The position numbers and the translations under genes are program-made. Positions 2,465 to 15,395 of a stretch of DNA of 15,395 nt are shown here, piece after piece. Position 1 is the first letter of the stretch. Every line of letters starts with the position of its first letter. The notes under the pieces were generated by a model, which did no database searches, was not told the DNA's origin, and saw nothing but the letters and a program-made list of their open reading frames with translations. This DNA is from an uncultured Caulobacteraceae bacterium. GTDB lineage: Bacteria; Pseudomonadota; Alphaproteobacteria; Caulobacterales; TH1-2. Location of the stretch: the NCBI GenBank assembly GCA_937967425.1, contig CALBST010000028.1, forward strand, positions 1 to 15,395. Direction: 5' to 3'.

Positions 2465-2470
2465 TCGCAC

Positions 2471-2510
2471 ACGCTGGCCGTCATCGGGTGTAGATGATGG
2501 CCGGCGTTTT
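2471..2510 (+). terminator. Hairpin plus T-tract between TBDR and MFS genes (terminator or attenuator)
   Basis: Seven bases after the TBDR stop, CGCTGGCCGTCATC (2472-2485) pairs with GATGATGGCCGGCG (2493-2506) around the 7-nt loop GGGTGTA. All 14 positions pair, two of them as G-U wobbles, and the run TTTT (2507-2510) follows directly. This is the shape of a Rho-independent terminator with a short T-tract. Because the next gene lies in the same direction 28 bp on, partial read-through that gives more receptor mRNA than carrier/enzyme mRNA is a plausible role. Confidence 0.7.
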
Positions 2511-2537
2511 GCCTGCACTTGACCAAGAGCAACAATA

Positions 2538-3860
2538 ATGGCGACGGGAACTTCATCAGTTGCGGGCGTTGGCGCCGGCACAGCGCGCGCCCAACCCGGC
2601 GCTTGGTTTGTGCTGACGATCCTGTGTTTCGTCTACGTGCTCAATTTCCTGGACCGGCAGCTCTTGTCGATCCTGGCGAAACCGATTCAAGACGAACTTG
2701 GCGTCAGCGATGGCCAGCTCGGGCTTATCGGCGGGCTCTATTTTGCCGCCTTCTACTGCATCCTCGCCATCCCGGTGGGGTGGCTTGCCGATCGCACCAA
2801 TCGCGTGCGCGTGCTGGCCTTCGCGTGCGGACTTTGGAGCGCCGCGACCGCCGCTTGCGGCTTTGCGCAAAACTATCCGCAGCTGGCTGTGGCGCGTATG
2901 GCGGTTGGCGTTGGTGAGGCGGGCGGGGTGCCGCCGTCTTACGCGATCATCTCGGACTATTTTCCGCCGGGCCGGCGTGGCACCGCGCTCAGTCTGTTCA
3001 ACCTAGGTCCTCCGATCGGCCAAGCGCTGGGCATCGCCTTCGGCGCCTCCGTTGCGGCCGCCTATTCATGGCGCTCAGCGTTTGTCGCGATCGGTATCGT
3101 CGGCGTCGTCACGGCTGTGATCGTCTGGATGTTCGTGCGCGAGCCTAAGCGCGGCGGCCTGGACGTTGCGCCGCAAACGGATGCGGCGGAGGCGAAGCCA
3201 GAAAGTGCGAAATTCTGGCCAACTGTCCGCATGTTCTTTTCCAACCCGGTCTTGTTGCGGGTTTCGATCGCGTGCGCGGCCACGCAGTTTGTGACTTACG
3301 GTATCTTGAACTTCACCACGCTCTTCTTGATGCGCGAGAAGGGCATGTCGCTTGAGGAGGTGGCGCTCTATTACGCGTTGCTGATCGGCATCTTTATCAG
3401 CCTCGGCATGTACGTGTCGGGCCGTCTCATCGATGCCTTTACCAAGCGTTCTAAGATCGCCTACGCCTGGATCCCTGCGATCGGGCTTATCCTCGCGGCG
3501 CCTCTCTTTGTTGGGTTCGTCTGGGCGCCGACCTGGCCGCTGGCCCTGGCGTTTCTGGCGCTGCCGACGGGGCTCAATTATTTCTACCTCTCGCCTTCGA
3601 TTACTTTGGTTCAACAAGAAGTGCGGCCCGACCAACGCGTGCTATGCGGCGCGCTGCTGTTGCTCGTAATGAACTTGGTTGGGTTGGGTTTCGGACCGAC
3701 CTTCGTCGGTTTCGTCAGCGACTATTTCAGGCCAACGCATCCGGACAATTCGCTGCAATTGGCATTTTATTGCCTCGCGCCATTTTACGGGGTGGCGGTG
3801 CTGTTGTTCATGTGGCTCGCAGGCGCGCTGAAGCGCGAGCAAACAGGAGACCGCGCGTGA
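2538..3860 (+). CDS. MFS transporter, spinster-like
   Basis: A 440-residue major facilitator superfamily carrier, expected to have 12 transmembrane helices and to sit in the inner membrane. After a short polar N-terminus, TM1 starts near residue 22 and leads into NFLDRQLL, a sequence typical of spinster-like MFS members. The loop 2-3 signature GWLADRTNRVRV lies at 81-92. A hydrophilic central loop (about 199-230, with REPKR and an acidic/Ala stretch) separates the two six-helix halves. The start ATG has only a weak AAGAG upstream. The 3' end overlaps the next gene by 4 bp (GTGA), indicating translational coupling to the esterase. By context it probably moves the TBDR ligand or its hydrolysis product from periplasm to cytoplasm; direction and substrate are inferred, not seen. 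Confidence 0.9.
   Translation: MATGTSSVAGVGAGTARAQPGAWFVLTILCFVYVLNFLDRQLLSILAKPIQDELGVSDGQLGLIGGLYFAAFYCILAIPVGWLADRTNRVRVLAFACGLWSAATAACGFAQNYPQLAVARMAVGVGEAGGVPPSYAIISDYFPPGRRGTALSLFNLGPPIGQALGIAFGASVAAAYSWRSAFVAIGIVGVVTAVIVWMFVREPKRGGLDVAPQTDAAEAKPESAKFWPTVRMFFSNPVLLRVSIACAATQFVTYGILNFTTLFLMREKGMSLEEVALYYALLIGIFISLGMYVSGRLIDAFTKRSKIAYAWIPAIGLILAAPLFVGFVWAPTWPLALAFLALPTGLNYFYLSPSITLVQQEVRPDQRVLCGALLLLVMNLVGLGFGPTFVGFVSDYFRPTHPDNSLQLAFYCLAPFYGVAVLLFMWLAGALKREQTGDRA
3845..3849 (+). promoter_or_regulatory. Ribosome binding site that fixes the GTG start of the carboxylesterase
   Basis: AGGAG lies 7 nt upstream of GTG 3857-3859. It places the start immediately before a classical signal peptide, and shows that the in-frame extension back to 3644, which runs inside the MFS gene, is not used. 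Confidence 0.75.
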
Positions 3861-5494
3861 AGCGACTTTTTCATCTCGTTACTGTGGTGTTGGCGCTCTT
3901 CGCGGGCGCATCAGCGTTCGCGCAGGAAGCCCCTGTCGTGAATGCGCCGGCCGGCAGTGTGCGTGGCGAATCTCTGGGCGATACGCGGGTGTTCCGCGGC
4001 ATTCCTTACGCGCGCCCACCCGTTGGGCAATTGCGTTGGCGCGCGCCGCTGCCATTGCCGCGGTGGCGCGGCGTGCGGGAAGCCACCCAGTTCGGCGCCG
4101 CTTGCATGCAACCGCCGTCCCGAGAGGGCAGCATTTACTACAACACCCACGCAGCGATGAGCGAGGACTGTCTCTTCCTCAATATCTGGACGCCAGCGAA
4201 TGCGCACAATGCGCCGGTCCTTGTCTGGATTCACGGCGGCTCGCTCGTAGGCGGGGCGGGCAGTGAGGGGATGTATGACGGCGCGCGTCTTGCCGCCGAG
4301 GGCGTCATCGTTGTCACCATCAATTATCGTCTCGGCGCATTGGGCTATCTGGCGCATCCGCAATTGAGCGCAGAATCGCGGCGCAACATTTCGGGCAATT
4401 ATGGGCTGCTGGATCAAGTGCAGGCGCTGCGCTGGGTCGAGCGGAATATCTCAGCCTTCGGTGGTAATCCGCAAAACGTGACGATTGCCGGCGAGTCAGC
4501 TGGCGCGTTGAGCGTCATGTATCTCATGGCGACGCCCGAGGCGCGCGGACTGTTTGATCGCGCTATCGCCCAAAGCGCCTACATGATCACCGCGCCGGAG
4601 CTGCGCAATTCTTCCTTTCAGGATTTCCCAGCTGCCGAAGCGATCGGCTACTGGCTGGGCACACAACTAGGCGCAGGCGATCTGGCGGGCTTGCGCTCGA
4701 TGAGCGCCGAAGCGATCGTCACTGGTTCAGCCGCGAGCGGCTACTTTCCGTTCGTGACCATCGACGGCCGGATCCTGCCGCGCCAACTCGTCGATGTGTT
4801 CGATCGCGGCGATCAAGCGCCGGTGCCGATCCTTGCAGGCTTCAACGAAGGCGAGATTCGCTCAATGCGCTTTCTCTTGCCGCCAGCCCCGGCGGACGCC
4901 GGCGCATACACGAACGAAATCCGGGCGCGCTATGGCGATTTGGCGGATGCGTTCTTGGCGCGTTACCCGGAGAGCAACATAGACGAGAGCATGCTCGCGA
5001 CCACGCGTGATGCAATGTATGGCTGGACCGCCGAACGCCTGGTGGCAAAGCAGACAGCTTTGGGCGTGCCGTCATTCCTTTATTACTTTGATCACGGCTA
5101 TCCAGCGGCCGACGATCGGGGCCTGCATGCATTCCATGCAGCAGAGATACCTTATGCGTTTGGGACTATGGCGCGGACGCCGCCGCGCTGGCCTGGGATC
5201 CCGCAGACGGCAGAGGAACGCGCGTTCTCGGACGCGATGGTGAGTTATTGGGCGTCGTTTGCACGTGACGGCGTTCCTAGCGCGCCCAATCACCCAGCCT
5301 GGCCAGCCTATGACGCTGAGCGTGCTTATATGGCGTTCGAGGCGGGTCCGATTGCACGAGCGGCGCCGCCGAATGCTTACGAACTGCATGAGGCAGTTGT
5401 CTGCCGCAGACGCGCGCAAGGCACGATCGCGTGGAATTGGAACGTTGGCGTCATCTCGCCGCCGCTTCCACCTGAGGCGCAACAGTGCCGATAA
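3857..5494 (+). CDS. Secreted type-B carboxylesterase
   Basis: A 545-residue serine esterase of the COesterase (type-B carboxylesterase) alpha/beta-hydrolase family, which hydrolyses carboxylic esters. The N-terminus is a signal peptide (VKRLFH, then a hydrophobic core, cleavage near AFA/QE), so the enzyme should act in the periplasm or outside the cell. Family landmarks are present: oxyanion-hole HGGS at 126-129, EDCLFLN at 103-109, nucleophile elbow GESAG with Ser214, acid Glu333 in GFNEGE, and His427 in FHAAEIPYAFG. The triad is complete and the length normal. The start is a GTG overlapping the upstream MFS stop (GTGA). The TBDR plus MFS plus secreted type-B esterase combination resembles known ester-detoxifying clusters such as that of the fumonisin esterase FumD, but no aminotransferase is visible here and the substrate is unknown. 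Some family members are amidases or act on lactones. Confidence 0.92.
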   Translation: MKRLFHLVTVVLALFAGASAFAQEAPVVNAPAGSVRGESLGDTRVFRGIPYARPPVGQLRWRAPLPLPRWRGVREATQFGAACMQPPSREGSIYYNTHAAMSEDCLFLNIWTPANAHNAPVLVWIHGGSLVGGAGSEGMYDGARLAAEGVIVVTINYRLGALGYLAHPQLSAESRRNISGNYGLLDQVQALRWVERNISAFGGNPQNVTIAGESAGALSVMYLMATPEARGLFDRAIAQSAYMITAPELRNSSFQDFPAAEAIGYWLGTQLGAGDLAGLRSMSAEAIVTGSAASGYFPFVTIDGRILPRQLVDVFDRGDQAPVPILAGFNEGEIRSMRFLLPPAPADAGAYTNEIRARYGDLADAFLARYPESNIDESMLATTRDAMYGWTAERLVAKQTALGVPSFLYYFDHGYPAADDRGLHAFHAAEIPYAFGTMARTPPRWPGIPQTAEERAFSDAMVSYWASFARDGVPSAPNHPAWPAYDAERAYMAFEAGPIARAAPPNAYELHEAVVCRRRAQGTIAWNWNVGVISPPLPPEAQQCR

Positions 5495-7053
5495 TTCACG
5501 GAGATATGCAGTCCTATCCGCTGACGCTCGACAGATTTTTGGCGCACGCGGCGAAGTGGCGCCCGAATGTTGAAGTCGTCACGGCGCACGCGGGAGGGCG
5601 CCGGGACAGGATCGGCTATCGCGCCCTCATGGCGCGCAGCCGGCGCGTCTCGGCGGTGTTGCGCGAACTCGGTGTCAAGCCAGGAGAGCATGTCGCCACG
5701 CTTGCCTGGAATAGCGCCACGCACGTCGAGGCTTGGTACGCGATCATGGGTATGGGCGCGGTCTGCCACACGCTCAATCCGCGTCTCACCAGCGCGCAAC
5801 TGGCGGCAATGGCTACGCTGTCCGGCGCGCGTATCATCATTGCGAGCGCTGATCTTGGCCCCCTCGCGCATCAGATCGCCGAGGCTGCGCCCCCGATTCA
5901 GCGCGTGCTCACAATCGATGGCGCCGCAGGTGATGCCGAGGCGCTGGAACCGTTGATCGAAGCGGCCGACGAGGGCGGGGTCGTGTGGGGCGCGTTCGCG
6001 GAGACGCAAGCGTCGGGACTTTGCTTCACCTCCGGCACAACCGGCGCGCCGAAGGGTGTCACCTATACGCACCGATCGAGCTATCTCCACACTCTGCGTT
6101 TGTTGCAGGCCGACGTGCTGGCGCTAACCGCAAGCGACAGCGTGCTCGCGGTCGTTCCGATGTTTCATGCCAATGCCTGGGGATTGCCGTTCGCTGCGCC
6201 AGCCGCAGGCGCCAAGCTCGTTCTTCCGGGGCGGGCGACGGACGGCGCAAGTCTGGCGAACTTGATCAACGCGGAGAAGGTGACAATCGCCGTTGGCATT
6301 GCGACTGTCTGGCTGGGACTCGTCGAACACCTAGACACACACGGAGGTGAAACGCCGTCCTTAAAGCGGGTGGTCGTCGGCGGCGCACCGCTGCCACCGG
6401 CCTTGATGCAACGCATCGAAGAACGACTCGGCGTTGTTGTTCAAACAAGCTGGGGCATGACCGAGCTTTCGCCGGGGGGAACGTTTGCGCCGCCTCATCT
6501 CCGTGAACGCGATGCTGCTTTGTCGGGCCGACCGGCGATCGGCGTGGATCTTCTGCTCACCGACGCCGAAGGCGTCGCGTTGGCGGAGCAGCGCAACATC
6601 GAGGGGCACTTGCGTGTGCGCGGCGACGCGGTCGTTGCACGCTATTTCGGCGAGACGCAAAGCGCAGCCGATGCGGATGGCTGGTTCGCGACGGGTGATC
6701 TTGCGAAAATCGATGCGGACGGGAATCTGATGATCACCGGACGTGCGAAAGATTTGATCAAGTCCGGCGGTGAGTGGATCAACCCGGTGGAGATCGAGGC
6801 CCTGGTGAGCCGTTTGCCGGAGGTATCCTTAGCGGCAGTGATCGGCCGTTCGCACCCCAAATGGGGTGAGCGGCCCATCCTCCTGGTGCAGACACGCGAG
6901 CAGCCGGTCAGCGACGAAGCCCTGTTGGCGCCGCTGCACAATAACGTGGCGCCTTGGTGGATTCCCGATGCGATCATACGTATTCCAGAGATGCCGCTCG
7001 CACCGACCGGCAAGATAGACAAGATTCGTTTGAGAGCTGAGTATGGCGGCTGA
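5485..7053 (+). CDS. AMP-dependent acyl-CoA synthetase, AlkK-like
   Basis: A 522-residue adenylate-forming ligase that converts a carboxylic acid, ATP and CoA to an acyl-CoA in the cytosol. Motifs run in order: VCHTLNPR at 93-100 and an FHANAWG stretch, both typical of the AlkK/medium-to-long-chain fatty acyl-CoA synthetase branch; P-loop TSGTTGAPKG at 182-191; WGMTE core; TGD at 403-405; hinge GRAKDLIKSGGEWI at 419-432; and catalytic Lys510 in PTGKIDK. The GTG start at 5485 overlaps the esterase by 10 bp and has TGAGG 7 nt upstream. An ATG at 5506 is the alternative, but its GGAG is only 2 nt away. Homologues generally carry a G-x-M-Q-x-x-P-L type N-terminus, which favours the GTG. It probably activates an acid released by one of the esterases. 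Whether that acid is aliphatic or aromatic is not determinable. Confidence 0.92.
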   Translation: MPIIHGDMQSYPLTLDRFLAHAAKWRPNVEVVTAHAGGRRDRIGYRALMARSRRVSAVLRELGVKPGEHVATLAWNSATHVEAWYAIMGMGAVCHTLNPRLTSAQLAAMATLSGARIIIASADLGPLAHQIAEAAPPIQRVLTIDGAAGDAEALEPLIEAADEGGVVWGAFAETQASGLCFTSGTTGAPKGVTYTHRSSYLHTLRLLQADVLALTASDSVLAVVPMFHANAWGLPFAAPAAGAKLVLPGRATDGASLANLINAEKVTIAVGIATVWLGLVEHLDTHGGETPSLKRVVVGGAPLPPALMQRIEERLGVVVQTSWGMTELSPGGTFAPPHLRERDAALSGRPAIGVDLLLTDAEGVALAEQRNIEGHLRVRGDAVVARYFGETQSAADADGWFATGDLAKIDADGNLMITGRAKDLIKSGGEWINPVEIEALVSRLPEVSLAAVIGRSHPKWGERPILLVQTREQPVSDEALLAPLHNNVAPWWIPDAIIRIPEMPLAPTGKIDKIRLRAEYGG

Positions 7054-7804
7054 ATCTGCATCCAAGCCTAAGAGCGCGGCGGCAAAGTCGAAGCCAACGC
7101 CTAAATCGAACGCCAAGGCTCGCGGCGATGAGGCAAAGTCGCGCCGTCGGCCGACCAAGATTCAGCAACGTGCAGATAAGATGGAACAGATCTTGGATGC
7201 GGCGGAGTATCTGTTCTCCAAGCATGGCCTGCATGGGGTGACGCTGAAGGATGTCGCCAAGCGCGTCGATGCCCACCACACGCTGATGAACTACTATTTC
7301 ACCGATAAGACGACGCTCTTTGCCGCTGTTTTCGCGCGGCGCGCGGCCGTGACAAGCGCACTTCGCTTGGCGGCGCTCGATAAGTATGACGCCGAGACTA
7401 AAGGGAAGCCGACCGTTGAGGGCGCGCTGCGCGCGTTCTTGGACACCGACCTCGATCTCTATAGTCGCGGCGGCGAGGGCTGGAAGAACTACGGCGCTCT
7501 AGGCGCGCAGGCGTCGAACACCGCAGAAGGCGCAGCGCTCATGGATCAGCATTTCGATCCTGTCGTGCTGAGGCTGATTGGCTTGCTGAAGAAGGCGATG
7601 CCCGATTGCGCCGAAGAAGACATCTTTTGGGGCTATCACTTCGTCACGGGCGCTCTGATGTTGACGCTCGCCAGAACGGGCCGGATCGATCGGCTGTCCG
7701 GGGGGCTCTGCAAATCGGACGACTACGAAGCAATCAAGAAGCGCATGGCGCAATTCATGGCCGCAGGCTTTCGCGACCTCTGTAAGCGGAGCAAACTCGG
7801 CTAA
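7043..7804 (+). CDS. TetR-family transcriptional regulator with basic N-terminal tail
   Basis: A 253-residue TetR-type repressor candidate. The DNA-binding domain covers about 46-95: helix MEQILDAAEYLFSKHG, then the helix-turn-helix (T67-F86) ending in the family-typical NYYFTDKTTLF. The remainder is an alpha-helical ligand/dimer domain. Residues 5-45 form an unusual low-complexity tail rich in Lys, Ala, Ser, Pro and Arg ahead of the first helix. The ATG overlaps the ligase gene by 11 bp, so the regulator is co-translated with the catabolic genes and may act in feedback on the operon promoter. An acyl-CoA made by the upstream ligase is a reasonable effector by analogy with FadR/PaaR-type TetR proteins, but this is inference. 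It is the last gene of the plus-strand module and converges with the minus-strand MFS gene. Confidence 0.9.
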   Translation: MAAESASKPKSAAAKSKPTPKSNAKARGDEAKSRRRPTKIQQRADKMEQILDAAEYLFSKHGLHGVTLKDVAKRVDAHHTLMNYYFTDKTTLFAAVFARRAAVTSALRLAALDKYDAETKGKPTVEGALRAFLDTDLDLYSRGGEGWKNYGALGAQASNTAEGAALMDQHFDPVVLRLIGLLKKAMPDCAEEDIFWGYHFVTGALMLTLARTGRIDRLSGGLCKSDDYEAIKKRMAQFMAAGFRDLCKRSKLG

Positions 7805-7838: not shown

Positions 7839-9128
7839 CTAGCGCGCCCGGATCAGCGCCGCGGTGAAGCCAATTGCGGCCGCGGTACTCGTCGCGGCGC
7901 CACAGATCGCCAGCCCGGTCCGCAGGGCATCTTCGCCGCCGACTGCGTCCGCAATGATCGTAACCAGAGTAGGCGCCACGCCGAAGCCGATGATGGCGCC
8001 TATAACGATAAATGCGCCCAGACACACTCCGCGAATTTCGTTTGGTACGAGAACGGCGATCGCCGCCGCCGTAACGAGGCCAGTAATTGCGCCACATGTC
8101 AGCAGCAGAAGCAGTAGCCAGGCAAAACCGGTGGCTGTCGGCATCAGTGGAAAGAGCGCGCCGGGAATGGAAAGTGCTGCGGCGACAACGGCGCCGATCA
8201 AGATTCCCCCTTTGATTTTGCTCTTGTGACCGAAGTCGGCCGCGAAGCCTCCGACGAGAGCGCCGATTACGCCTGAGCCTAGGATGACGAGGCCCATCCA
8301 ACCGCCGAATTGATCCGGTTCGAGATTGTAATGACGCTCAAGCACAGGCGCGGCCCAAATGCTTGCTGCAGCGTCCGCCATCACCACCGTGACCTGACCG
8401 AGAAACAGCGGAGCAAGAAGTCCCCGCCGCTCCCACAGCTCGCGCAGCGCCACAGAGAGAGCGGGACTCGTTTCACTGATTTCTTGGCGCGGCGGCTCGC
8501 GGAGCAGCAGTAAGAGCAGGGACAGAATGAGGCTCGCGCCGGCAAACACCAGCAATACGTTGCGCCAGGGCGTGAGCCCTTCAACGAGCGGTGTGGTTTG
8601 CGCGTAAAAGCCAAGCAGTGAGCCGCCGAATGCAAAGGCTGCCGCGCCGCCGATCATGTTGCCCAGCGAAAGCACCATCAGAGAGCGGCCGCGGGTTGCG
8701 GGAGAACTGAGATCGGCCGTCAGTGAGATGGCGACGGTGAGCGACGAAAACGCGCCGATCCCTGCAAGCATGCGCGCGGCGAAGATGTGCCAAAACTCGG
8801 TAGCGAAGACCGTGAGCGCGGTGCCGACGGTCCAAAGCATGGCGAGGCAAAACAGCAAGAGCGAGCGGTTGCCTCGATCGGTCATGCGGCCGACCGGGAT
8901 CGCCAAGAGGCCGATGGGGATGGAGATCGCCAAGCCTTGCAGCAGACTCATTTGAAAGTCGCTGAAATGCAGTTCGGCCGCCGCGACCTCTTGCACCGGG
9001 CTAAACACGGTGCGCATCGCCGATGCGCTGCCGATTGTGGTCGCGAGTAGGATGAGCGCGGGCAGAACGCGGTTGGGCCTGCGCGCAACCGCTGCGCTCA
9101 AGCCGGCCGTGGCGTCAAGCTGAGCCAA
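7839..9128 (-). CDS. MFS transporter, spinster-like (second copy)
   Basis: A 429-residue inner-membrane MFS carrier with 12 predicted helices. TM1 lies near 21-42. The loop 2-3 motif GRMTDRGNR is at 80-88. Helix 4-5 contains an ARMLAGIGAF-type sequence, and a basic central loop (LLLREPPRQE) precedes the second half. I prefer the TTG start at 9126-9128 because it has a perfect GGAGG 6 nt upstream and gives a normal MFS N-terminus. The in-frame ATG at 9165-9167 would add 13 residues, has no ribosome binding site, and overlaps gntR by 53 bp. The TTG overlaps gntR by 14 bp, so the carrier is likely coupled to it. It is not close to the MFS protein at 2538-3860 by eye, so the two carriers may handle different compounds. 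Substrate unknown. Confidence 0.88.
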   Translation of the reverse strand: MAQLDATAGLSAAVARRPNRVLPALILLATTIGSASAMRTVFSPVQEVAAAELHFSDFQMSLLQGLAISIPIGLLAIPVGRMTDRGNRSLLLFCLAMLWTVGTALTVFATEFWHIFAARMLAGIGAFSSLTVAISLTADLSSPATRGRSLMVLSLGNMIGGAAAFAFGGSLLGFYAQTTPLVEGLTPWRNVLLVFAGASLILSLLLLLLREPPRQEISETSPALSVALRELWERRGLLAPLFLGQVTVVMADAAASIWAAPVLERHYNLEPDQFGGWMGLVILGSGVIGALVGGFAADFGHKSKIKGGILIGAVVAAALSIPGALFPLMPTATGFAWLLLLLLTCGAITGLVTAAAIAVLVPNEIRGVCLGAFIVIGAIIGFGVAPTLVTIIADAVGGEDALRTGLAICGAATSTAAAIGFTAALIRAR

Positions 9129-9849
9129 CTTGAGCCTCCGCCTTGAGCAGATCGCCGATGGCGTCATCGAAGTGCAGCGCCATGGCTGCGGCGGCGGCTT
9201 CCGGATCTCGCTTCATGATCGCTGCCGCAACGGCGCGGTGGCGATCGATCATCACTTGCTTGCGGCTCTTGGCGATGCGCGTGCTCCAAGCGGTCGGCAC
9301 CGCGACCTCCATCAGCGGCGCAAACGAAGCAACGATCTGGATGAAGAGCGCATTGTGGCTCGCTTCGGCGATGGCTCTGTGAAAGGCGATATCATGAGCG
9401 GTGCGCTTGGCAAGATCGTCCTTGTCCGCCGCCATCGCCTCAGCCAGCGCGACGATGCGCTCGGCCTGTTCATCGGTGCGCGCCGTCGCTGCAAGCGCTG
9501 CTGTGCGCTGCTCAATTGTGCGGCGGACGTCCCAGATATCGGGCACCGTAATCTGAGCCGTTGAAATGGCGTGCTGCAGAGAGGTGGCGATGACCGAGCC
9601 GTCGAGCGCGCCAACACGCGGCTTGCGGCCGTTGCCCACATTGATCACTTTGAGTGCGGCAAGCGCGCCGAACGCTTCACGCATCACCGCCCGGCTGACG
9701 TCGAGCACTTCCGCAAAATGGCCTTCGCCGGGCAGAGTGTCGCCGACGCGCAACTGATGATCCCGGATGTAGTCCGTGACAGCATTCATTGCGGATTGGA
9801 CAAGCGAACCGCTTTCGGCGCCACGCAAAGTGGTTGAGGGGGTTGGCAT
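9115..9849 (-). CDS. GntR-family regulator, FadR/FCD subfamily
   Basis: A 244-residue transcription factor. The winged helix-turn-helix occupies about 16-80, including LPGEGHFAEVLDVSRAVMRE (39-58) as the DNA-recognition part. The C-terminal FCD effector domain covers about 104-235 and carries the expected metal-binding set: Asp153 and His157 (in DIAFHRAI), His204 (DRHRAV) and His226 (ALHFDDA). FCD-GntR proteins commonly repress catabolic operons and are released by carboxylic acids or sugar acids. The ATG at 9847-9849 follows the araC stop after 9 bp, with AAGGG upstream, so araC and gntR are co-transcribed. It is the best candidate to bind the shared palindrome at 10648-10662, 10673-10687 and 15255-15269, because FCD-GntR proteins bind short palindromes of that kind; not proven. 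Confidence 0.93.
   Translation of the reverse strand: MPTPSTTLRGAESGSLVQSAMNAVTDYIRDHQLRVGDTLPGEGHFAEVLDVSRAVMREAFGALAALKVINVGNGRKPRVGALDGSVIATSLQHAISTAQITVPDIWDVRRTIEQRTAALAATARTDEQAERIVALAEAMAADKDDLAKRTAHDIAFHRAIAEASHNALFIQIVASFAPLMEVAVPTAWSTRIAKSRKQVMIDRHRAVAAAIMKRDPEAAAAAMALHFDDAIGDLLKAEAQVGSA
9135..9139 (-). promoter_or_regulatory. Ribosome binding site that favours the TTG start of the second MFS gene
   Basis: GGAGG on the minus strand, 6 nt before TTG 9126-9128 and inside the last codons of gntR. The competing ATG at 9165-9167 has no comparable site. Confidence 0.6.
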
Positions 9850-9858
9850 CTCTATCCC

Positions 9859-10608
9859 TTAAGCCGCTGCGCCGTAGGCGCGGAAATCTGACGGTGAGAC
9901 GCCGAAGCGGCGGCCAAACGCGCGCGCGAAGCTGGCGTTGTTCAGGTAGCCGTTTTCGTAGCCGATGGACGAGACCGGCAGGTTTGTCGTCAGCAGCATC
10001 CGCTTTGCTTGACTGAGCCGCTGCTCGGCAATGGCTTCGGCGATGCTGCAATTGAACATGTCGCGGAAGCCGCGCGTCAGCTTGGCGCGATTGAGGCCGC
10101 AGGCGCGTGCGATCTTGTCGAGCGTGAGTTTCTCGTTCCAGCGTTCGTCAATCATGCGGCGCGCGGCGAGGACACGGCGGGTGTCTTCAAGCGAGAGCGC
10201 GCCGTCGGCGGCGAGCGGCAGCAATTCCTCGGTGCTGAGCAAACGGATGGTTTCGCACAGCAGTTCGATGCTCTTACCGAGGCGATAAATCGTCAGCGTC
10301 TCGCCGTGCAGCGTGCTTTCCTGAATGGCCAGAACAATCCCGCGCAGCGCCGATGGCAGGTGAAACTCGACACCGTCCGGCGTCACACCGCCGACACGCG
10401 TAAACGCGCTCCGGCTGATGACGAGCGTCAGCCGCGTCTCGGCATTGAGCGAAGCAGTGTTCGGCGAAAGATCGAACGCCACCACTGGCGTCGCAGCATC
10501 GGCGTCGAACGAAAGCGCAATGTGGTCCGGCGGCAGCGGCGCATGGGTGACCGGGCCAGCGCCCAGCAACAGCGTCATCTCCGGAGAGACTTCGACGAAT
10601 TCCCGCAT
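9859..10608 (-). CDS. AraC-family transcriptional regulator
   Basis: A 249-residue regulator with a clear C-terminal AraC/XylS domain (about 145-245). The first helix-turn-helix is LDKIARACGLNRAKLTRGF (163-181). The second spans about 212-235 and ends in the family signature FGVSPSDFRAY. Residues 1-130 do not look like an AraC-type arabinose cupin. The segment with LTIYRLGKSIELL is reminiscent of PchR-like AraC proteins, which sense small ligands at TBDR loci, but that resemblance is by eye only. The start is fixed by a strong GGGGGAGGA just upstream. It heads the araC-gntR-MFS unit, directly behind two palindromic operator-like sites. A positive regulator beside a GntR repressor suggests two-layer control of the neighbouring TBDR operon. 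Confidence 0.92.
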   Translation of the reverse strand: MREFVEVSPEMTLLLGAGPVTHAPLPPDHIALSFDADAATPVVAFDLSPNTASLNAETRLTLVISRSAFTRVGGVTPDGVEFHLPSALRGIVLAIQESTLHGETLTIYRLGKSIELLCETIRLLSTEELLPLAADGALSLEDTRRVLAARRMIDERWNEKLTLDKIARACGLNRAKLTRGFRDMFNCSIAEAIAEQRLSQAKRMLLTTNLPVSSIGYENGYLNNASFARAFGRRFGVSPSDFRAYGAAA

Positions 10609-10647: not shown

Positions 10648-10662
10648 ACCTTTCAGATAGGT
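10648..10662. promoter_or_regulatory. Operator-like palindrome, site A
   Basis: ACCTTTCAGATAGGT on the plus strand, which is ACCTATCTGAAAGGT on the minus strand. This 15-mer is identical (reverse-complemented) to site C upstream of the second TBDR. Pairing about its centre is complete except at one symmetric position. Confidence 0.7.
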
Positions 10663-10672
10663 TTGGTCAACT

Positions 10673-10687
10673 AGCTATCTGATAGGT
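10673..10687. promoter_or_regulatory. Operator-like palindrome, site B
   Basis: AGCTATCTGATAGGT contains the perfect 11-bp palindrome CTATCTGATAG and matches the site A/C consensus at most positions. It lies one base beyond the stop codon of the esterase gene. Confidence 0.6.
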
Positions 10688-10688
10688 C

Positions 10689-11657
10689 TTAAGTGCTAGG
10701 GTAAAGAGCCCGGCGGAGCGCCTCTCGGCTGTGCTCGCGGGCGCGGACGGAGATCGGCGCGTCTCCGCCGAAAATGTCGAAGCCATGAAATCCGCCCGGA
10801 TAAACATGGAGTTCAACGGCGACGCCGGCCCGCGCCAGACGGGCGGCGTAGGCGATGTCCTCATCAATGAAGAGGTCGAGCGTCGGGCAGGCGATAAAGG
10901 CGGGCGGCAGGCCGCGGAGGTCAGTGGCTCGCGCGGCGGCAGCGTAGGGCGACACATTTGGGCGGCCCGGCTCGTGGCCCAAGAGCGAGGTCCAGCCGAA
11001 GCGATTGTTGTGCGCCGTCCAGATGAATTCGCCGGCGACTGGGTTGGGCTCAGCCGCAACGCAGGTGCGGTCATCGAGCATCGGATAGATTAAGTGCTGA
11101 AACGCGAGCCTGTATTCGCCGCGATCTCGCGCGAGCAGCGTCAGCGCGGCTGCAAGACCGCCGCCCGCGCTTTCGCCCATAACGCCTATGCGATCGCGAT
11201 CAATGCCAAGCTCAGACGCGTTCGCGAATGTCCAGCCGAGACCAGCATAGCAATCCTCAATACCGGCCGGAAATGGATGTTCGGGCGCGAGCCGATAATC
11301 GACGCTGACGATCACGCAGTTGAGATCGAACGCCATCGGGCGATGCAGCGGTTCAAGCTGCGCAGCGGCGCCGCCGACATAGCCGCCCCCGTGGATGTGA
11401 TAGATACACGGCAGCGGGCCTCTGGCGTTGCGCGGCGTGTAGATCGTCAGCGTGATGTCCGGCGCGCCGGCCGGACCTGGTACGCTGCGTACCTTTTGCA
11501 AAACGCCTTCGCGCACTTGATCAGAGAGCGTCACGGGCAACTGCGCAAAGCGTTCCGCCTCACGCATCGCCCCCAGCACCTCGTTCGATAACGCAATCGT
11601 CGGAAATACGTCCAACACGGGCAGGAGTGCTGGGTCGACGAGCTTGCGCGTGTCCAT
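10689..11657 (-). CDS. Alpha/beta-hydrolase esterase, HSL (hormone-sensitive-lipase) family
   Basis: A 322-residue cytosolic serine esterase or lipase. Oxyanion motif HGGG is at 89-92, the DYRLAPEHPFPA sequence at 120-131 is characteristic of the HSL family, and the nucleophile elbow GESAGG holds Ser163. The acid is Asp261 (in TLDLFIDED) and the base His291 (GGFHGF). The triad is complete and the length is typical. There is no signal peptide, unlike the type-B esterase at 3857-5494, so the two hydrolases act in different compartments. It is separated from the FAD oxidase stop by 4 bp and has only a weak ribosome binding site, consistent with coupled translation. The reaction is ester or lactone hydrolysis of a small substrate; identity unknown. 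Confidence 0.93.
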   Translation of the reverse strand: MDTRKLVDPALLPVLDVFPTIALSNEVLGAMREAERFAQLPVTLSDQVREGVLQKVRSVPGPAGAPDITLTIYTPRNARGPLPCIYHIHGGGYVGGAAAQLEPLHRPMAFDLNCVIVSVDYRLAPEHPFPAGIEDCYAGLGWTFANASELGIDRDRIGVMGESAGGGLAAALTLLARDRGEYRLAFQHLIYPMLDDRTCVAAEPNPVAGEFIWTAHNNRFGWTSLLGHEPGRPNVSPYAAAARATDLRGLPPAFIACPTLDLFIDEDIAYAARLARAGVAVELHVYPGGFHGFDIFGGDAPISVRAREHSREALRRALYPST

Positions 11658-11661
11658 ATTT

Positions 11662-13068
11662 TCAATCCGCGAAGATCTTGCCGGGGTTGAAGAGGTTCTT
11701 CGGATCGAGCGCCTTCTTGATTGAGCGCATCATATCGACGCCGTCTTCGCCAAGTTCGCGCACCAGCCAATCTTGCTTGCCCAGCCCGATGCCGTGTTCA
11801 CCGGTGCAGGTTCCGTCCATGTCGAGCGCGCGTTGGACCAGGCGCTCGTTCAGCGCTTCGGCTTCCTTGTGCTCGGTGGCGCTGTTCGGATCTATGACGA
11901 AGATGACGTGGAAGTTGCCGTCGCCGACGTGGCCGAGAATCGGCGCGGGGAAAGAAGCCTTCTCCAGATCGCGCTTGGTCTCATTGATGCATTCGGCAAG
12001 GCGCCCGATCGGCACGCATACATCGGTGGGCCAGCCGATGGCGCCTTTTCGCATAGCCGTCGCGGCGTAGAACGCCTGGTGGCGGGCCTTCCAAAGCTTG
12101 GCTCGTTCTTCCGGTAAGTTCGACCAGTGGAATTCGCCGCCGCCATTGTCGCGCGCAAGATCGCCGATGGTGGCGATCTGCTCTTTCACGGCGTGTTCGC
12201 TGCCGTGGAATTCGAAGAACAGCGTCGTCAGTTCGGGATAGCTGAGTTTCGAGTGCAGGTTGACGGCTTTCATCTGCACGTCATCGAGAATTTCAACGCG
12301 TGCGAGAGGGATGCCGAGTTGGATCGCTTGCACCACAGTATCAACGGCGCCGGCCAACGTCTGGAAGCTGCAGACGGCCGAGGAAATCTGCTCCGGAATG
12401 CCGTGGAGCCGCAACGTCACTTCGGTGATGATGCCGAGCGTGCCTTCAGAGCCGATGAAGAGGCGGGTGAGGTCATAACCCGCCGCGCTCTTGCGCGCAC
12501 GGCGAGCGGTGCGGATGTCGCGGCCATCAGGTGTGACCACGCGCAACGAGAGGATCGCCTCGCGCATCGTTCCATAACGCACGGCGTTCGTGCCGGAGGC
12601 GCGAGTCGAGGCCATGCCGCCAAGCGTAGCGTTGGCGCCGGGATCAATAGGAAAGAACAGGCCTTGGTCGCGCAGCGCGAGGTTCAACTCTTCGCGGCGC
12701 ACGCCGGCCTGCACCGTGCAGTCGAAGTCGTCCGGATTGATCTCGAGGATCTTGTTCATCTCGGACAGGTCAACGCAGACGCCGCCGCGCACCGGCGTCG
12801 TGTTGCCCTCCACCGAGGTACCGGCGCCGTAAGCGACGATCGGCACGTCAGCGGCGGTGCACGCCTTCACGACAGCAACGACCTCTTCAGTCGAGTGCGC
12901 GAAGACGACGGCGTCTGGTAGCGCCGTTGCGAAATGGGTTTCGCTGCCGCCGTGTTGAGCCCGCATGGCTTCGCCGAGATGCAGGCGGTCTCCGAAGATT
13001 CCGCGCAGCGTTTCGACGAAAGCCGGCGCGAGTGGCGAGCGCGACGCAATAGGTGCGGGCGCGCCCAT
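11662..13068 (-). CDS. FAD-linked oxidase, GlcD / D-lactate dehydrogenase (cytochrome) type
   Basis: A 468-residue flavoprotein of the D-lactate dehydrogenase/glycolate oxidase subunit D family, which oxidises D-2-hydroxy acids to 2-oxo acids and passes electrons to a carrier rather than NAD. The PCMH-type FAD domain (about 45-230) shows PIVAYGAGTSVEGN, the conserved FPIDPGANATLGGM, and GYDLTRLFIGSEGTLGIITE. The C-terminal FAD-oxidase domain carries HVGDGNFH (380-387) and GEHGIG (Glu424, His425), the substrate/metal-binding signatures, and ends in LDPKNLFNPGK. No signal peptide or iron-sulfur motif is seen, so it matches the single-subunit LDHD-like form rather than a GlcDEF complex. The ATG follows the TBDR stop after 4 bp. 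Sugar-acid, lactate or aryl 2-hydroxy-acid substrates are all possible. Confidence 0.92.
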   Translation of the reverse strand: MGAPAPIASRSPLAPAFVETLRGIFGDRLHLGEAMRAQHGGSETHFATALPDAVVFAHSTEEVVAVVKACTAADVPIVAYGAGTSVEGNTTPVRGGVCVDLSEMNKILEINPDDFDCTVQAGVRREELNLALRDQGLFFPIDPGANATLGGMASTRASGTNAVRYGTMREAILSLRVVTPDGRDIRTARRARKSAAGYDLTRLFIGSEGTLGIITEVTLRLHGIPEQISSAVCSFQTLAGAVDTVVQAIQLGIPLARVEILDDVQMKAVNLHSKLSYPELTTLFFEFHGSEHAVKEQIATIGDLARDNGGGEFHWSNLPEERAKLWKARHQAFYAATAMRKGAIGWPTDVCVPIGRLAECINETKRDLEKASFPAPILGHVGDGNFHVIFVIDPNSATEHKEAEALNERLVQRALDMDGTCTGEHGIGLGKQDWLVRELGEDGVDMMRSIKKALDPKNLFNPGKIFAD

Positions 13069-13072
13069 GGCT

Positions 13073-15178
13073 TCAGAACCGCGTGCTGACGCGAACGCCG
13101 ACGCGGCGGCCGTCGCCGGCGATGGCGAGGTTGCGCGTGATGGGGCTGGCGTCGCCGAACAGGCGGCCGAGCAGTGAACGATCGAGGTAGGAGTCGTAAT
13201 ATTCCTCGTCGGTCAAATTCGTGCCCCAGAGGCCGATGGTCCAATCGTTGATGGAATAGCTGATGTTGCCGCTGACGAGGTAGTAGCCCTCCATCGGCGG
13301 CGCGACCAGCGGATTCAAGCTCGAGCCGACGCGATCACCCTTGTATGTAATAGTTGTGTCCAGACGAAGCTCGCCTTGGCCGAGCGGCACGGTGTAGCTC
13401 GGCGTCAGGAAGAAATTCCAATCCGGCTGGAAAAGAATGCGGTCTGACGGCAGCGGATCGCCGATAATGGCTTGGTATTGCGAGTCATCGGTGATGCGGG
13501 CGTGGTTATAGGTTGCGCCGCCTTGCAGCGCGAAGGCGTCCGTCGGCCGCCATACGCCTTCGATTTCGACGCCGTAGCTTTCAACATCGCCGGTGTTGAG
13601 GTTCACCGCGATCAGCGCCGGCGTCAGCGAGTTCTGGCCGATGTAATTCTGATAGTCGTTGAAATAGACGGCCGTGTTCAGCGTCAGCGTGTTGTCGTTG
13701 GTGGTGAACTTGTTGCCGAGTTCGTACGTCCACACCGAGTCGCCCTCCCAGATCGGGTTCGGCGCGCCAGGTGAGTTTGCGCCGCCGCCGCGGAAGCCGC
13801 GTGCGATCGAGCCGTACGTCATCCAGTTGTCGGTCCAGCGCTGTGTCAGCGTAACGCGCGGCTGCCACTCGTCGGCGGAGTAGATGCCAGACGTGCCGGT
13901 GGCGTTGATCTCCTGGTGGTCGTAGCGAAGACCAACTGAGAGCTCTAGCGACGGCGTAATTTCATAGAACAGAGTACCGAAGATAGCGGCGGAGGATGTT
14001 TCGATCGTTTGGTCGGTAATCACCAGCGGCGCAAGTATGAGCGGCGTGCTGGACAGCACGAGATTGTTCTCTGAGTGGATGTAGTTGTCGGAGTGGTTGG
14101 CGAATACGCCGACCAGCGTGCTCAGCCGGTCGCTCCACTGCGTATCGAACCGCACCTCGCCGGTAAAGGTCTCCAGCAGATTGTAGCCGTTGCGCACGCG
14201 CAAGAAGTCGATCGGGCCGAAATCGCCGTCGCCCCGCGCTTCGCCTTCCTTGCGGTCGTACGCGAGGATCGCGGTCATCTGCGTGTTTTCGGTAACATCG
14301 AATACGCCGCGTACGTTGCCGCCGGTGTATTCGAAGCGCGCGATGCTGTTCTCGTTGAGCTGCGTGTCTTGGACGTAGTCGGTCGGTCCGCTTGGGCTTG
14401 AGTAAGCGGTCTGCGAGCCTTCGACCGTGTTGTAATATGCATTGAGAGTGATCTCGGCGCCTTGCGGCGCATCCCACACCAACGAACCCGTCAGCGATTC
14501 CGTTTGCATCGGGCGCGCATCGCCGCCGGCAAGCGTGTTGGTCGAGAAGCCGTCGCGCGTGTGGTACGCCGCGCCAATGCGGCCACGCAGAACGCCCTCG
14601 ATCAGCGGACCGCTGATGCTGCCGGAGTAGGTCTGATAATTATCTGGATCGGCGTAGACGGCGCTTAGGCGGCCTTCGAACTCGTCCGTCGGCTGACGCG
14701 TCACGACGCTGATCGCGCCGCCCAGTGTGTTATTGCCGAACAGCGTGCCTTGCGGGCCGCGCAACACCTCGATGCGTTCGACATCGAACACCGGGTTATT
14801 CAAATAGGAGCTGTTCGCCTGATAGACGCCATCGACGAAAATGCCGACTCCAGGCTGCACAGTGTCGATCAAGGTGGTGCCTACGCCGCGGATGGACATG
14901 AATGCGCGGCCGACAGCGTCGGTGGTGATGTTGAGGCCCGGCGTGAGCGCGGCCACTTCGCGGACGGAATTGATCTGCTGGTTCTCAAGCGTTTCGCCGC
15001 TGACGGCGGTCACCGCGATCGGCACGTCCTGCAGCCGCTCTTCGCGCTTCCGCGCCGTAACGACGATCTCATCGTCCCCGCTCTCTTCCGCGCTGGTTGC
15101 GTCTTGCGCCGCCGCCACGCTGGGGAACACCGCCAGACCCAGGGCCGCGCTAGCCAGAAGCTTCGTGATGCGACGCAT
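13073..15178 (-). CDS. TonB-dependent outer-membrane receptor (second copy)
   Basis: A 701-residue outer-membrane transporter. A signal peptide begins MRRITKLL and ends near VAAA/QD (cleavage after A24). A TonB-box-like EIVVT is at 37-41, followed by RKREERLQDVPIAVTAVSGE, a common plug opening. Further plug landmarks are IRGVGT near 96-101, VGIFVDGVY at 111-119 and IEVLRGPQGTLFG at 136-148. The beta-barrel fills the rest and the protein ends in Phe. The ATG at 15176-15178 has a perfect GGGAGG 7 nt upstream and begins directly with the signal peptide. The longer in-frame ATG at 15229 adds 17 residues without a ribosome binding site and is rejected. It heads a tight operon with the FAD oxidase and HSL esterase (4-bp gaps), which ties its ligand to the substrate of those enzymes. 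Confidence 0.94.
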   Translation of the reverse strand: MRRITKLLASAALGLAVFPSVAAAQDATSAEESGDDEIVVTARKREERLQDVPIAVTAVSGETLENQQINSVREVAALTPGLNITTDAVGRAFMSIRGVGTTLIDTVQPGVGIFVDGVYQANSSYLNNPVFDVERIEVLRGPQGTLFGNNTLGGAISVVTRQPTDEFEGRLSAVYADPDNYQTYSGSISGPLIEGVLRGRIGAAYHTRDGFSTNTLAGGDARPMQTESLTGSLVWDAPQGAEITLNAYYNTVEGSQTAYSSPSGPTDYVQDTQLNENSIARFEYTGGNVRGVFDVTENTQMTAILAYDRKEGEARGDGDFGPIDFLRVRNGYNLLETFTGEVRFDTQWSDRLSTLVGVFANHSDNYIHSENNLVLSSTPLILAPLVITDQTIETSSAAIFGTLFYEITPSLELSVGLRYDHQEINATGTSGIYSADEWQPRVTLTQRWTDNWMTYGSIARGFRGGGANSPGAPNPIWEGDSVWTYELGNKFTTNDNTLTLNTAVYFNDYQNYIGQNSLTPALIAVNLNTGDVESYGVEIEGVWRPTDAFALQGGATYNHARITDDSQYQAIIGDPLPSDRILFQPDWNFFLTPSYTVPLGQGELRLDTTITYKGDRVGSSLNPLVAPPMEGYYLVSGNISYSINDWTIGLWGTNLTDEEYYDSYLDRSLLGRLFGDASPITRNLAIAGDGRRVGVRVSTRF

Positions 15179-15185
15179 TTCAATT

Positions 15186-15190
15186 CCTCC
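15186..15190 (-). promoter_or_regulatory. Ribosome binding site that fixes the start of the second TBDR
   Basis: GGAGG on the minus strand, 7 nt before ATG 15176-15178. It excludes the upstream in-frame ATG at 15229. Confidence 0.8.
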
Positions 15191-15198
15191 CGGTGTGG

Positions 15199-15222
15199 GC
15201 ACGCTCCAGTTCTGAAGCGTGC
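15199..15222 (-). promoter_or_regulatory. Hairpin in the 5' leader of the second TBDR
   Basis: GCACGCT and AGCGTGC form a perfect 7-bp inverted repeat around a 10-nt loop, 8 nt upstream of the Shine-Dalgarno core. It could be a leader-RNA structure that affects translation, or a second protein-binding dyad. It does not resemble the site A/B/C palindromes. Confidence 0.4.
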
Positions 15223-15254
15223 TTGTCATTAGGGAGAGCCTAAGCTGAGCTGAG

Positions 15255-15269
15255 ACCTATCTGAAAGGT
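15255..15269. promoter_or_regulatory. Operator-like palindrome, site C, upstream of the second TBDR
   Basis: ACCTATCTGAAAGGT, extended by flanking G and C to a 17-bp near-perfect palindrome (GACCT...AGGTC). It is the exact reverse complement of site A in the araC promoter region and lies 77-91 bp upstream of the TBDR start codon. No convincing -35/-10 pair was found around it. Confidence 0.7.
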
Positions 15270-15313
15270 CCCCGGGTGACCAGAGTCTGTGCCGATCGGC
15301 TCAGAGGTTTGGC

Positions 15314-15337
15314 CCGGCGGAATCTGCGCGCCGCCGG
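15314..15337 (-). terminator. GC-only hairpin after the SDR gene (weak terminator candidate)
   Basis: CCGGCGG and CCGCCGG pair perfectly (7 bp) around a 10-nt loop, starting 2 nt after the SDR stop codon. No T-tract follows on the minus strand, so it may only protect the 3' end or mark a Rho-dependent boundary between SDR and TBDR transcripts. Confidence 0.35.
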
Positions 15338-15338
15338 T

Positions 15339-15395
15339 TCACCAGCACGAATAACCGCCGTCGGCCAGCACGATGCTGCCGGTCATCAGGCTTGA
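15339..15395 (-). CDS. 3' end of a short-chain dehydrogenase/reductase gene (partial)
   Basis: Eighteen residues and a TGA are inside the window: SSLMTGSIVLADGGYSCW. The pattern (x)MTGSxVxxDGGYxxW is the standard C-terminus of classical SDR oxidoreductases, where it closes the last beta strand of the Rossmann domain. The gene runs in the same direction as the TBDR operon but ends 109 bp upstream of the TBDR signal, beyond a hairpin and the site C operator. It is probably a separate or alternately transcribed member of the same pathway, oxidising or reducing an alcohol or ketone with NAD(P). Confidence 0.85.
   Translation of the reverse strand, partial: SSLMTGSIVLADGGYSCW

Follow-up and report, generated by a model that had tools for sequence, protein, structure and literature searches.

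A gene cluster with three related palindromes

We analysed a 15,395-nucleotide stretch of DNA (the window; contig CALBST010000028.1 of assembly GCA_937967425.1) from an uncultured Caulobacteraceae bacterium, with attention to three related 15-bp palindromes, designated O1, O2, and O3, that are the predicted operators of a GntR regulator encoded in the same locus. In minus-strand order, the locus comprises an SDR gene cut by the window edge, O1, genes for a TonB-dependent receptor, an oxidase dependent on flavin adenine dinucleotide (FAD), and an alpha/beta-hydrolase, then O3 and O2, and finally genes for an AraC regulator, an FCD-type GntR regulator, and an MFS transporter. The receptor gene is assigned to positions 13073..15178 of the minus strand. 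Its longest open reading frame extends to 15229, but a start at 15178 is favored by a GGAGG ribosome site and a signal peptide. The original prediction was right to place a palindrome ahead of the receptor operon; the likely receptor start lies 76 bp from O1. The next gene (11662..13068, minus strand) is predicted to encode a FAD-linked D-2-hydroxyacid dehydrogenase resembling LDHD, with the LDHD-type domain set FAD_binding_4 plus FAD-oxidase_C and matches to mouse LDHD entries at 1.2e-150, while sequence matches identify the product of the third (10689..11657, minus strand) as an alpha/beta-hydrolase esterase of the hormone-sensitive-lipase type.

The two regulators follow. The AraC-family protein (9859..10608, minus strand; Pfam PF12833) has the C-terminal double helix-turn-helix (HTH) of the AraC/XylS family, and in our model is the proposed activator, acting via a 21-bp repeat described below. 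The GntR protein (9115..9849, minus strand) combines an N-terminal GntR winged helix (PF00392; 32.5 bits, cut-off 27) with a C-terminal FCD domain (PF07729), which places it in the FadR (FCD) subfamily, and its predicted structure is nearest to the FCD domains of PdhR and DhdR. On the basis of alignments and the model it is the proposed repressor binding O1-O3. The MFS transporter gene, found by Pfam search (7839..9167, minus strand), is the last of the araC-gntR-MFS unit.

A scan of the window found ACCTATCTGAAAGGT with no mismatches on the plus strand at 15255-15269 and on the minus strand at 10648-10662, and a third related site, reading AGCTATCTGATAGGT, at 10673-10687, in exact agreement with the original prediction. 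Read in gene direction on the minus strand, O1 (15255..15269, upstream of the receptor operon) is ACCTTTCAGATAGGT, O2 (10648..10662, the araC-proximal site upstream of araC-gntR-MFS) is ACCTATCTGAAAGGT, and O3 (10673..10687, the distal member of the pair, 25 bp from O2) is ACCTATCAGATAGCT. O2 and O3 both fall within the 80 bp that separate the esterase gene from araC, so that araC-gntR-MFS, contrary to the flat statement in the original prediction, is only a putative separate transcription unit. The two 15-mers are identical, as originally described, but they are imperfect palindromes, with one of seven base pairs broken, three bases from the center. The best symmetric consensus, ACCTATCnGATAGGT, finds just the three places in the window, with one mismatch each. 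Allowing up to three mismatches to ACCTATCTGAAAGGT, the window contains six matches, which are the three places each read on both strands, compared with a mean of 0.10 and a maximum of 2 in 200 dinucleotide shuffles, none of which reached 6; the earlier judgment that chance identity is unlikely is borne out. A matrix built from relatives, whose 241 training sites include the window's own three, scores those three at 26.6-27.0 of 28.7 (O1, 27.0). The next best place scores 5.5, so that there is no further copy in the window and no comparable site upstream of a plus-strand gene module at 326-7804, where matrix scans of the window found neither a GntR-type nor an AraC-type site.

Conservation and rarity of the palindromes

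A search with the GntR protein gave 1459 homologues among 7998 candidates scored, of which 120 were listed; the nearest named homologues among the matches listed were from Vitreimonas, Hyphomonadaceae, and Terricaulis. Loci were gathered with a profile built from the window's sequence and 24 of the 120 (25 sequences in all), and the best 80 of 130 genome-contig loci (1.48 Mb) were retained. Against ACCTATCnGATAGGT, these gntR-homologue loci contain 7 exact matches; sites with one, two, and three mismatches number 132, 99, and 43, respectively. The 139 sites with at most one mismatch compare with 0 for 30 scrambled half-site palindromes (28 distinct), which over the same loci yielded 0-5 matches at two mismatches and 5-59 at three. 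The matrix of 241 sites was drawn from sites with at most two mismatches in the 80 loci, together with the window's three. Its half-site has A at -7 (92%), C at -6 (81%), C at -5 (98%), T at -4 (99%), A at -3 (66%), T at -2 (99%), and C at -1 (96%), with the third position from the center being A or T in ~85% and G or C in ~15% of half-sites.

Synteny is strong as well, with receptor, LDHD-like oxidase, optional hydrolase and MFS, AraC, and GntR found together in Hyphomonadaceae, Caulobacteraceae, and Sphingomonadaceae; a carboxylesterase gene frequently lies upstream and, where inspected, is followed by an SDR gene. Counting the window, 55 loci have a site ahead of the receptor and 70 have one ahead of araC. 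The araC-side sites are paired 21-25 bp apart, mostly 23, in 62 of the 70; on the receptor side, 37 loci have a pair, with spacings of 16-18, 20, 23, or 29-32 bp, and 18 have one site only. When nine close loci, the window among them, are aligned, the palindromes stand out amid diverging flanks, with O1 nearly invariant among relatives, and the non-coding gaps that contain the palindromes are the same across orders. Phylogenetic footprinting was extended to 90 loci (the 80 genome loci, nine plasmid loci, and the window), with a palindrome counted if its matrix score exceeded 14. The motif or a variant form is retained in 86 of these; the other four are lone gntR copies away from catabolic genes (L023 and L055) and 38%-identical homologues (L110 and L111). 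The regulon is otherwise mainly alphaproteobacterial, and its occurrence in another gene order on a contig labelled as a Bordetella metagenome-assembled genome (L016) is a case of mis-binning or transfer.

Sites with at most two mismatches were also counted across the genomes of 13 relatives, with the reversed pattern as control. G001 (control 3) and G002 (control 1) have three sites each, all in the locus, those of G001 with one mismatch apiece. Three of five sites lie in the locus in both G003 and G004 (control 1 each), four of eight in G005 (control 5) and G007 (control 4), four of eleven in G006 (control 4), four of six in G009 (control 1), three of four in G011 (control 1), and one of six in G013 (control 5). 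G010 has five sites, four of them in its two gntR loci (control 4), G008 has eight genome-wide (control 2), and the Vibrio genome G012 has twenty (control 18). The closest complete genome has exactly three sites, every one in this locus. Because the control counts are similar, matches outside the loci run near background; copies are thus few and, among close relatives, mostly in the locus. Two outcomes that would have refuted the original prediction, numerous copies genome-wide and loss of the motif beside orthologous gntR genes, were checked in this way, and neither check refuted it.

Persistence of the palindromes beside gntR

The original prediction named either GntR or AraC as the binder, favoring GntR from the palindromic form of the sites. 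AraC is present in 73 of the 90 loci, and all 73 have a palindrome scoring above 14. Among the 17 loci without AraC, 13 keep the palindrome, three of them in variant form. The loci are not independent: S. meliloti is the source of both L103 and L106, and L014 is nearly a twin of L015. In the draft genome of Sphingomonas Y57, two sites precede an oxidase-gntR operon and no AraC orthologue was found, the best candidate being a 33% HTH match. On pSymA of S. meliloti (L103), a perfect ACCTATCTGATAGGT stands just before the gene for a 48%-identical GntR and is the only match with at most two mismatches in 1.35 Mb (one control match). In the annotated sister plasmid (L106), 12 bp separate the end of this site from the start of gntR, and the surroundings include lactonase, mandelate-racemase-type, and sugar-ABC genes but no AraC. 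A computed network names the pSymA GntR regulators SMa0062, SMa0063, and SMa0065 (PMC11387232). Homologues in Shinella, Agrobacterium, and Ensifer each have one site, 13-24 bp before gntR, and for two Rhodobacterales homologues at 38% identity no palindrome was found in the locus or on the plasmid. Together, footprinting, rarity, and persistence beside gntR without AraC strongly support a local regulon with the FCD-GntR as the likely binder. From these sequence comparisons, the palindromes very probably serve as operators for this FCD-type GntR (9115-9849).

None of 81 aligned GntRs has Arg at the position that corresponds to FadR Arg35. Three paralogues (L063, L070, and L071) have ACATATCnGATATGT-like (ACATATC-type) sites, and their GntRs have Lys for Gly/Ala at this position and Arg for Asn in the wing. 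L043 has the same Lys yet retains ACC-type sites, and so Lys alone is not the cause of the operator change. Ligand positions are also changed in the three paralogues (to Asn, Leu, or Cys), and the L063 paralogue lies near 2-hydroxyacid dehydrogenases of the flavin mononucleotide and nicotinamide adenine dinucleotide types.

A 21-bp direct repeat that tracks araC

Missed in the original prediction was a tandem direct repeat of 21-bp period beside the receptor palindrome (15287..15320, minus strand; score 34.8), which ends 17 bp upstream of O1 and consists of a distal unit, CCGATCGGCCAAG, and a proximal unit, CCGATCGGCANAG. AraC proteins usually bind direct repeats, and this one is probably the AraC site. 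With the comparison anchored on the proximal unit in 55 loci, an offset of 21 gives a mean of 7.98 of 12 matches versus 3.24 when shuffled (largest of 2000 shuffles, 3.93), and 21 is the best offset, ties counted, in 47 of the 55. Between repeat and palindrome, 33 loci have a gap of 6-7 bp, 21 a gap of 16-19 bp, and one a gap of 28 bp; the first two classes are about one helical turn apart. The 28-bp gap, in L032, was probably mis-anchored on the distal unit, since the best score lies 21 bp downstream.

A two-unit matrix trained on those 55 loci scores above a threshold of 15 in 65 of the 73 loci with AraC and in none of the 17 without it; of these 65, L041 has an isolated match ~9 kb from araC. 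Outside the training set, 10 of 18 loci with AraC have the repeat before the receptor or oxidase gene (L024, L035, L036, L037, L049, L059, L062, L067, L072, and L104). Eight loci with AraC score below 15. In L105 a 21-bp repeat can be seen by eye, the genes are ordered differently in L016 and L027, and the contigs of L029, L042, L046, L075, and L076 break off before reaching the region. Eight genomes with AraC, chosen for the pattern, have one in-locus match each, two of them with one weak extra match. A genome-wide scan of the AraC-less Y57 draft found no repeat, pSymA has one weak match, and the reversed control gave one match over all 10 records. In 16 of 61 loci with a same-strand carboxylesterase gene, a repeat scoring 15-25 lies within 200 bp upstream of the gene match.

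A proposed two-regulator switch

From the computed sites, their conservation and rarity, and the links of palindrome to gntR and of repeat to araC, we infer binding by the two regulators and a control scheme in which GntR represses, AraC activates, and a hydroxy acid is the effector. The scheme as a whole is probable. Its first step is quite likely: a GntR dimer would bind ACCTATCnGATAGGT at the receptor promoter and at the paired sites before araC-gntR, repressing the araC-gntR operon, in which it is itself encoded, as well as the receptor/D-2-hydroxyacid-oxidase/esterase operon. Alignments inspected by eye tentatively suggest a -10 element, TTAGGCT (15237..15243, minus strand), 11 bp after O1, which would put O1 over the -35 region of the receptor promoter. 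By eye, too, O3 and O2 would flank TTGACC (10665..10670, minus strand), a possible and equally tentative -35 of the araC promoter; the stretch separating them is conserved in the alignment. With its operators so placed, GntR would block both promoters.

We lean toward a small carboxylate as the compound that would release GntR; it would probably be an alpha-hydroxy acid akin to the one on which the FAD D-2-hydroxyacid dehydrogenase acts. The FCD ligand positions are kept (D153 in 78, H157 in 81, H204 in 80, and H226 in 77 of 81 GntRs, one locus being truncated) and align with D, H, H, and H of LldR 2di3, which we take to bind metal; their conservation suggests a carboxylate effector. AraC, freed by derepression of its own operon, would then bind the repeat and activate the receptor operon and, in some relatives, also the upstream carboxylesterase-SDR operon, steps to which jointly we give a shade less weight than to the whole scheme. 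LDHD is described as a general D-2-hydroxyacid dehydrogenase acting on substrates with hydrophobic groups (PMC10589216). Because the esterase and receptor share an operon with the LDHD-like oxidase, the likeliest role of the locus is uptake and cleavage of a D-2-hydroxyacid ester, substrate and effector both being guesses, and the target genes would point to an unassigned outer-membrane uptake route for such an ester. The switch, common to many soil and water bacteria, seems to control uptake and breakdown of a small hydroxy-acid compound. More tentatively, and with slightly less than even confidence, it may be a widespread AND-gated feed-forward loop for a D-2-hydroxyacid ester. In such a loop a non-canonical FCD repressor (ACC-TATCnGATA-GGT, no Arg28) would control the receptor-catabolic operon and the gene of its partner activator, the repeat would be set in steps of about a helical turn from the operator, and the repressor half would be reused alone in rhizobia beside sugar-acid genes.

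Several observations weigh against this scheme. No palindrome was found near the lone gntR copies of L023 and L055. In the L055 genome, a perfect palindrome, ACCTATCAGATAGGT, lies at L114:1501-1515, far from the sole gntR homologue found and adjoining unrelated genes (apparently GGDEF and peroxiredoxin, from a raw reading); it is perhaps a relic. L072 has the repeat before the receptor but no palindrome there. The predicted structure of AraC (predicted local distance difference test score 92) has a clear C-terminal HTH, but its N-terminal domain is only weakly similar to known sensor domains.

Of the alternatives, the one that survives best, although unlikely, is that the circuit is partly wrong, with GntR binding as proposed but activating, or a protein other than AraC binding the 21-bp repeat. 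The direction of control is unreadable from sequence and the -10 and -35 assignments were made by eye, but DhdR, with the same operator core, represses from -35, and the repeat is absent from all 17 AraC-less loci and was not found in the AraC-less Y57 genome. It is far less probable that AraC binds the palindromes and GntR has another target. AraC is encoded directly beside O2 and O3 and is common among the loci, but the palindrome or its variant persists in most AraC-less loci and the direct repeat, the usual form of AraC target, tracks araC; this candidate was rejected. Binding by a third regulator, for example a global one or the PsrA-like TetR encoded in the plus-strand module, is just as improbable. 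Palindromes also suit TetR proteins, and homologues of the plus-strand module, this TetR among them, occur in one sphingomonad locus (L059), but L059 alone among the 80 loci has a listed TetR homologue above 80 bits (whole genomes were not searched for TetR), all sites found in G001 and G002 lie in the gntR locus, and the only match on pSymA adjoins a gntR homologue. The most remote explanation, for which no support was found, is chance, a dispersed repeat, or transcript structure. It is rejected by the 0.10 matches expected per window, the scrambled-palindrome controls, genome-wide rarity (3/3 sites in the locus in G001 and G002), and retention of the palindromes in corresponding non-coding gaps of different orders.

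Relation to known regulators

DhdR of Achromobacter denitrificans is an FCD-GntR repressor of dhdR-d2hgdh (PDB 9jpj, with DNA). Its footprint, GTTATCAGATAAC, lies over the -35, and the repressor is released by D-2-hydroxyglutarate (PMC8651671). The operator core TATCAGATA (TATCnGATA) is common to both systems (PMC8651671), and here, as in DhdR-type loci, gntR is linked to a FAD D-2-hydroxyacid dehydrogenase gene, which is not so in the annotated rhizobial homologues. The two proteins are ~28% identical, and the DhdR core is flanked by GT/AC rather than ACC/GGT. DhdR is described with one palindrome and one operon, whereas the present locus has three sites, a receptor, an esterase, an MFS transporter, and an AraC partner.

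LldR, GlcC, and PdhR share the FCD effector domain and are among the best NCBIfam matches, all below cut-off, and LldR 2di3 is the best PDB sequence match to the window's GntR. Unlike the operator described here, theirs have GT-N3-AC (PMC4494728). The same paper gives TKGT-N3-ACMA as the FadR-subfamily operator consensus, typical but not defining, names BioR and NanR as exceptions, and reports that an Arg at HTH position 28, the commonest residue there in the subfamily, contacts G. The palindromes fall outside the canonical class, with no GT-N3-AC at the center and Arg28 in 0/81 GntRs, and the 241-site matrix rejects the classical FadR operator (TGGT...ACCA). The BioR operator (TTATMKATAA) likewise departs from the subfamily consensus and has an ATA-type half-site (PMC4494728); it differs in having no central spacer base, and BioR controls biotin genes. 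The present case is a clear addition to the FadR-subfamily operators without GT-N3-AC. For an FCD group across Caulobacterales, Sphingomonadales, and rhizobia, it supplies an operator, a binder, and a list of targets, all of them predicted.

A further comparison is with those AraC/XylS activators that use direct repeats with 21-bp spacing. The window's AraC resembles them in its C-terminal double HTH and in the two-turn direct repeat beside a promoter, and differs in its weakly similar N-terminal domain and in the placement of the repeat ~6-7 or 16-19 bp from a GntR operator. Our literature searches found no such two-regulator switch described. The search with operator motif strings gave a primer as its sole bacterial match, the other titles being unrelated; a search of this kind would miss operators printed with other flanks, as the DhdR paper surfaced via a fold search instead. 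Because paralogues with changed contact residues have a changed operator and AraC-less loci have no repeat, the evolution of repressor specificity and of two-regulator promoters could readily be tested on this module.

Neighboring genes

At 15339-15395 on the minus strand lies the apparent C-terminal end of an SDR, truncated at the edge of the window. An SDR gene also comes after a carboxylesterase gene directly upstream of the receptor in L001 and L104. The plus-strand module at 326-7804 encodes a TonB receptor, an MFS transporter, a carboxylesterase, an adenosine monophosphate (AMP)-ligase, and the PsrA-like TetR. In Sphingomonas jinjuensis (L059), homologues of its receptor, esterase, ligase, and TetR adjoin the same regulon, and so the plus-strand module and the regulon may work together.

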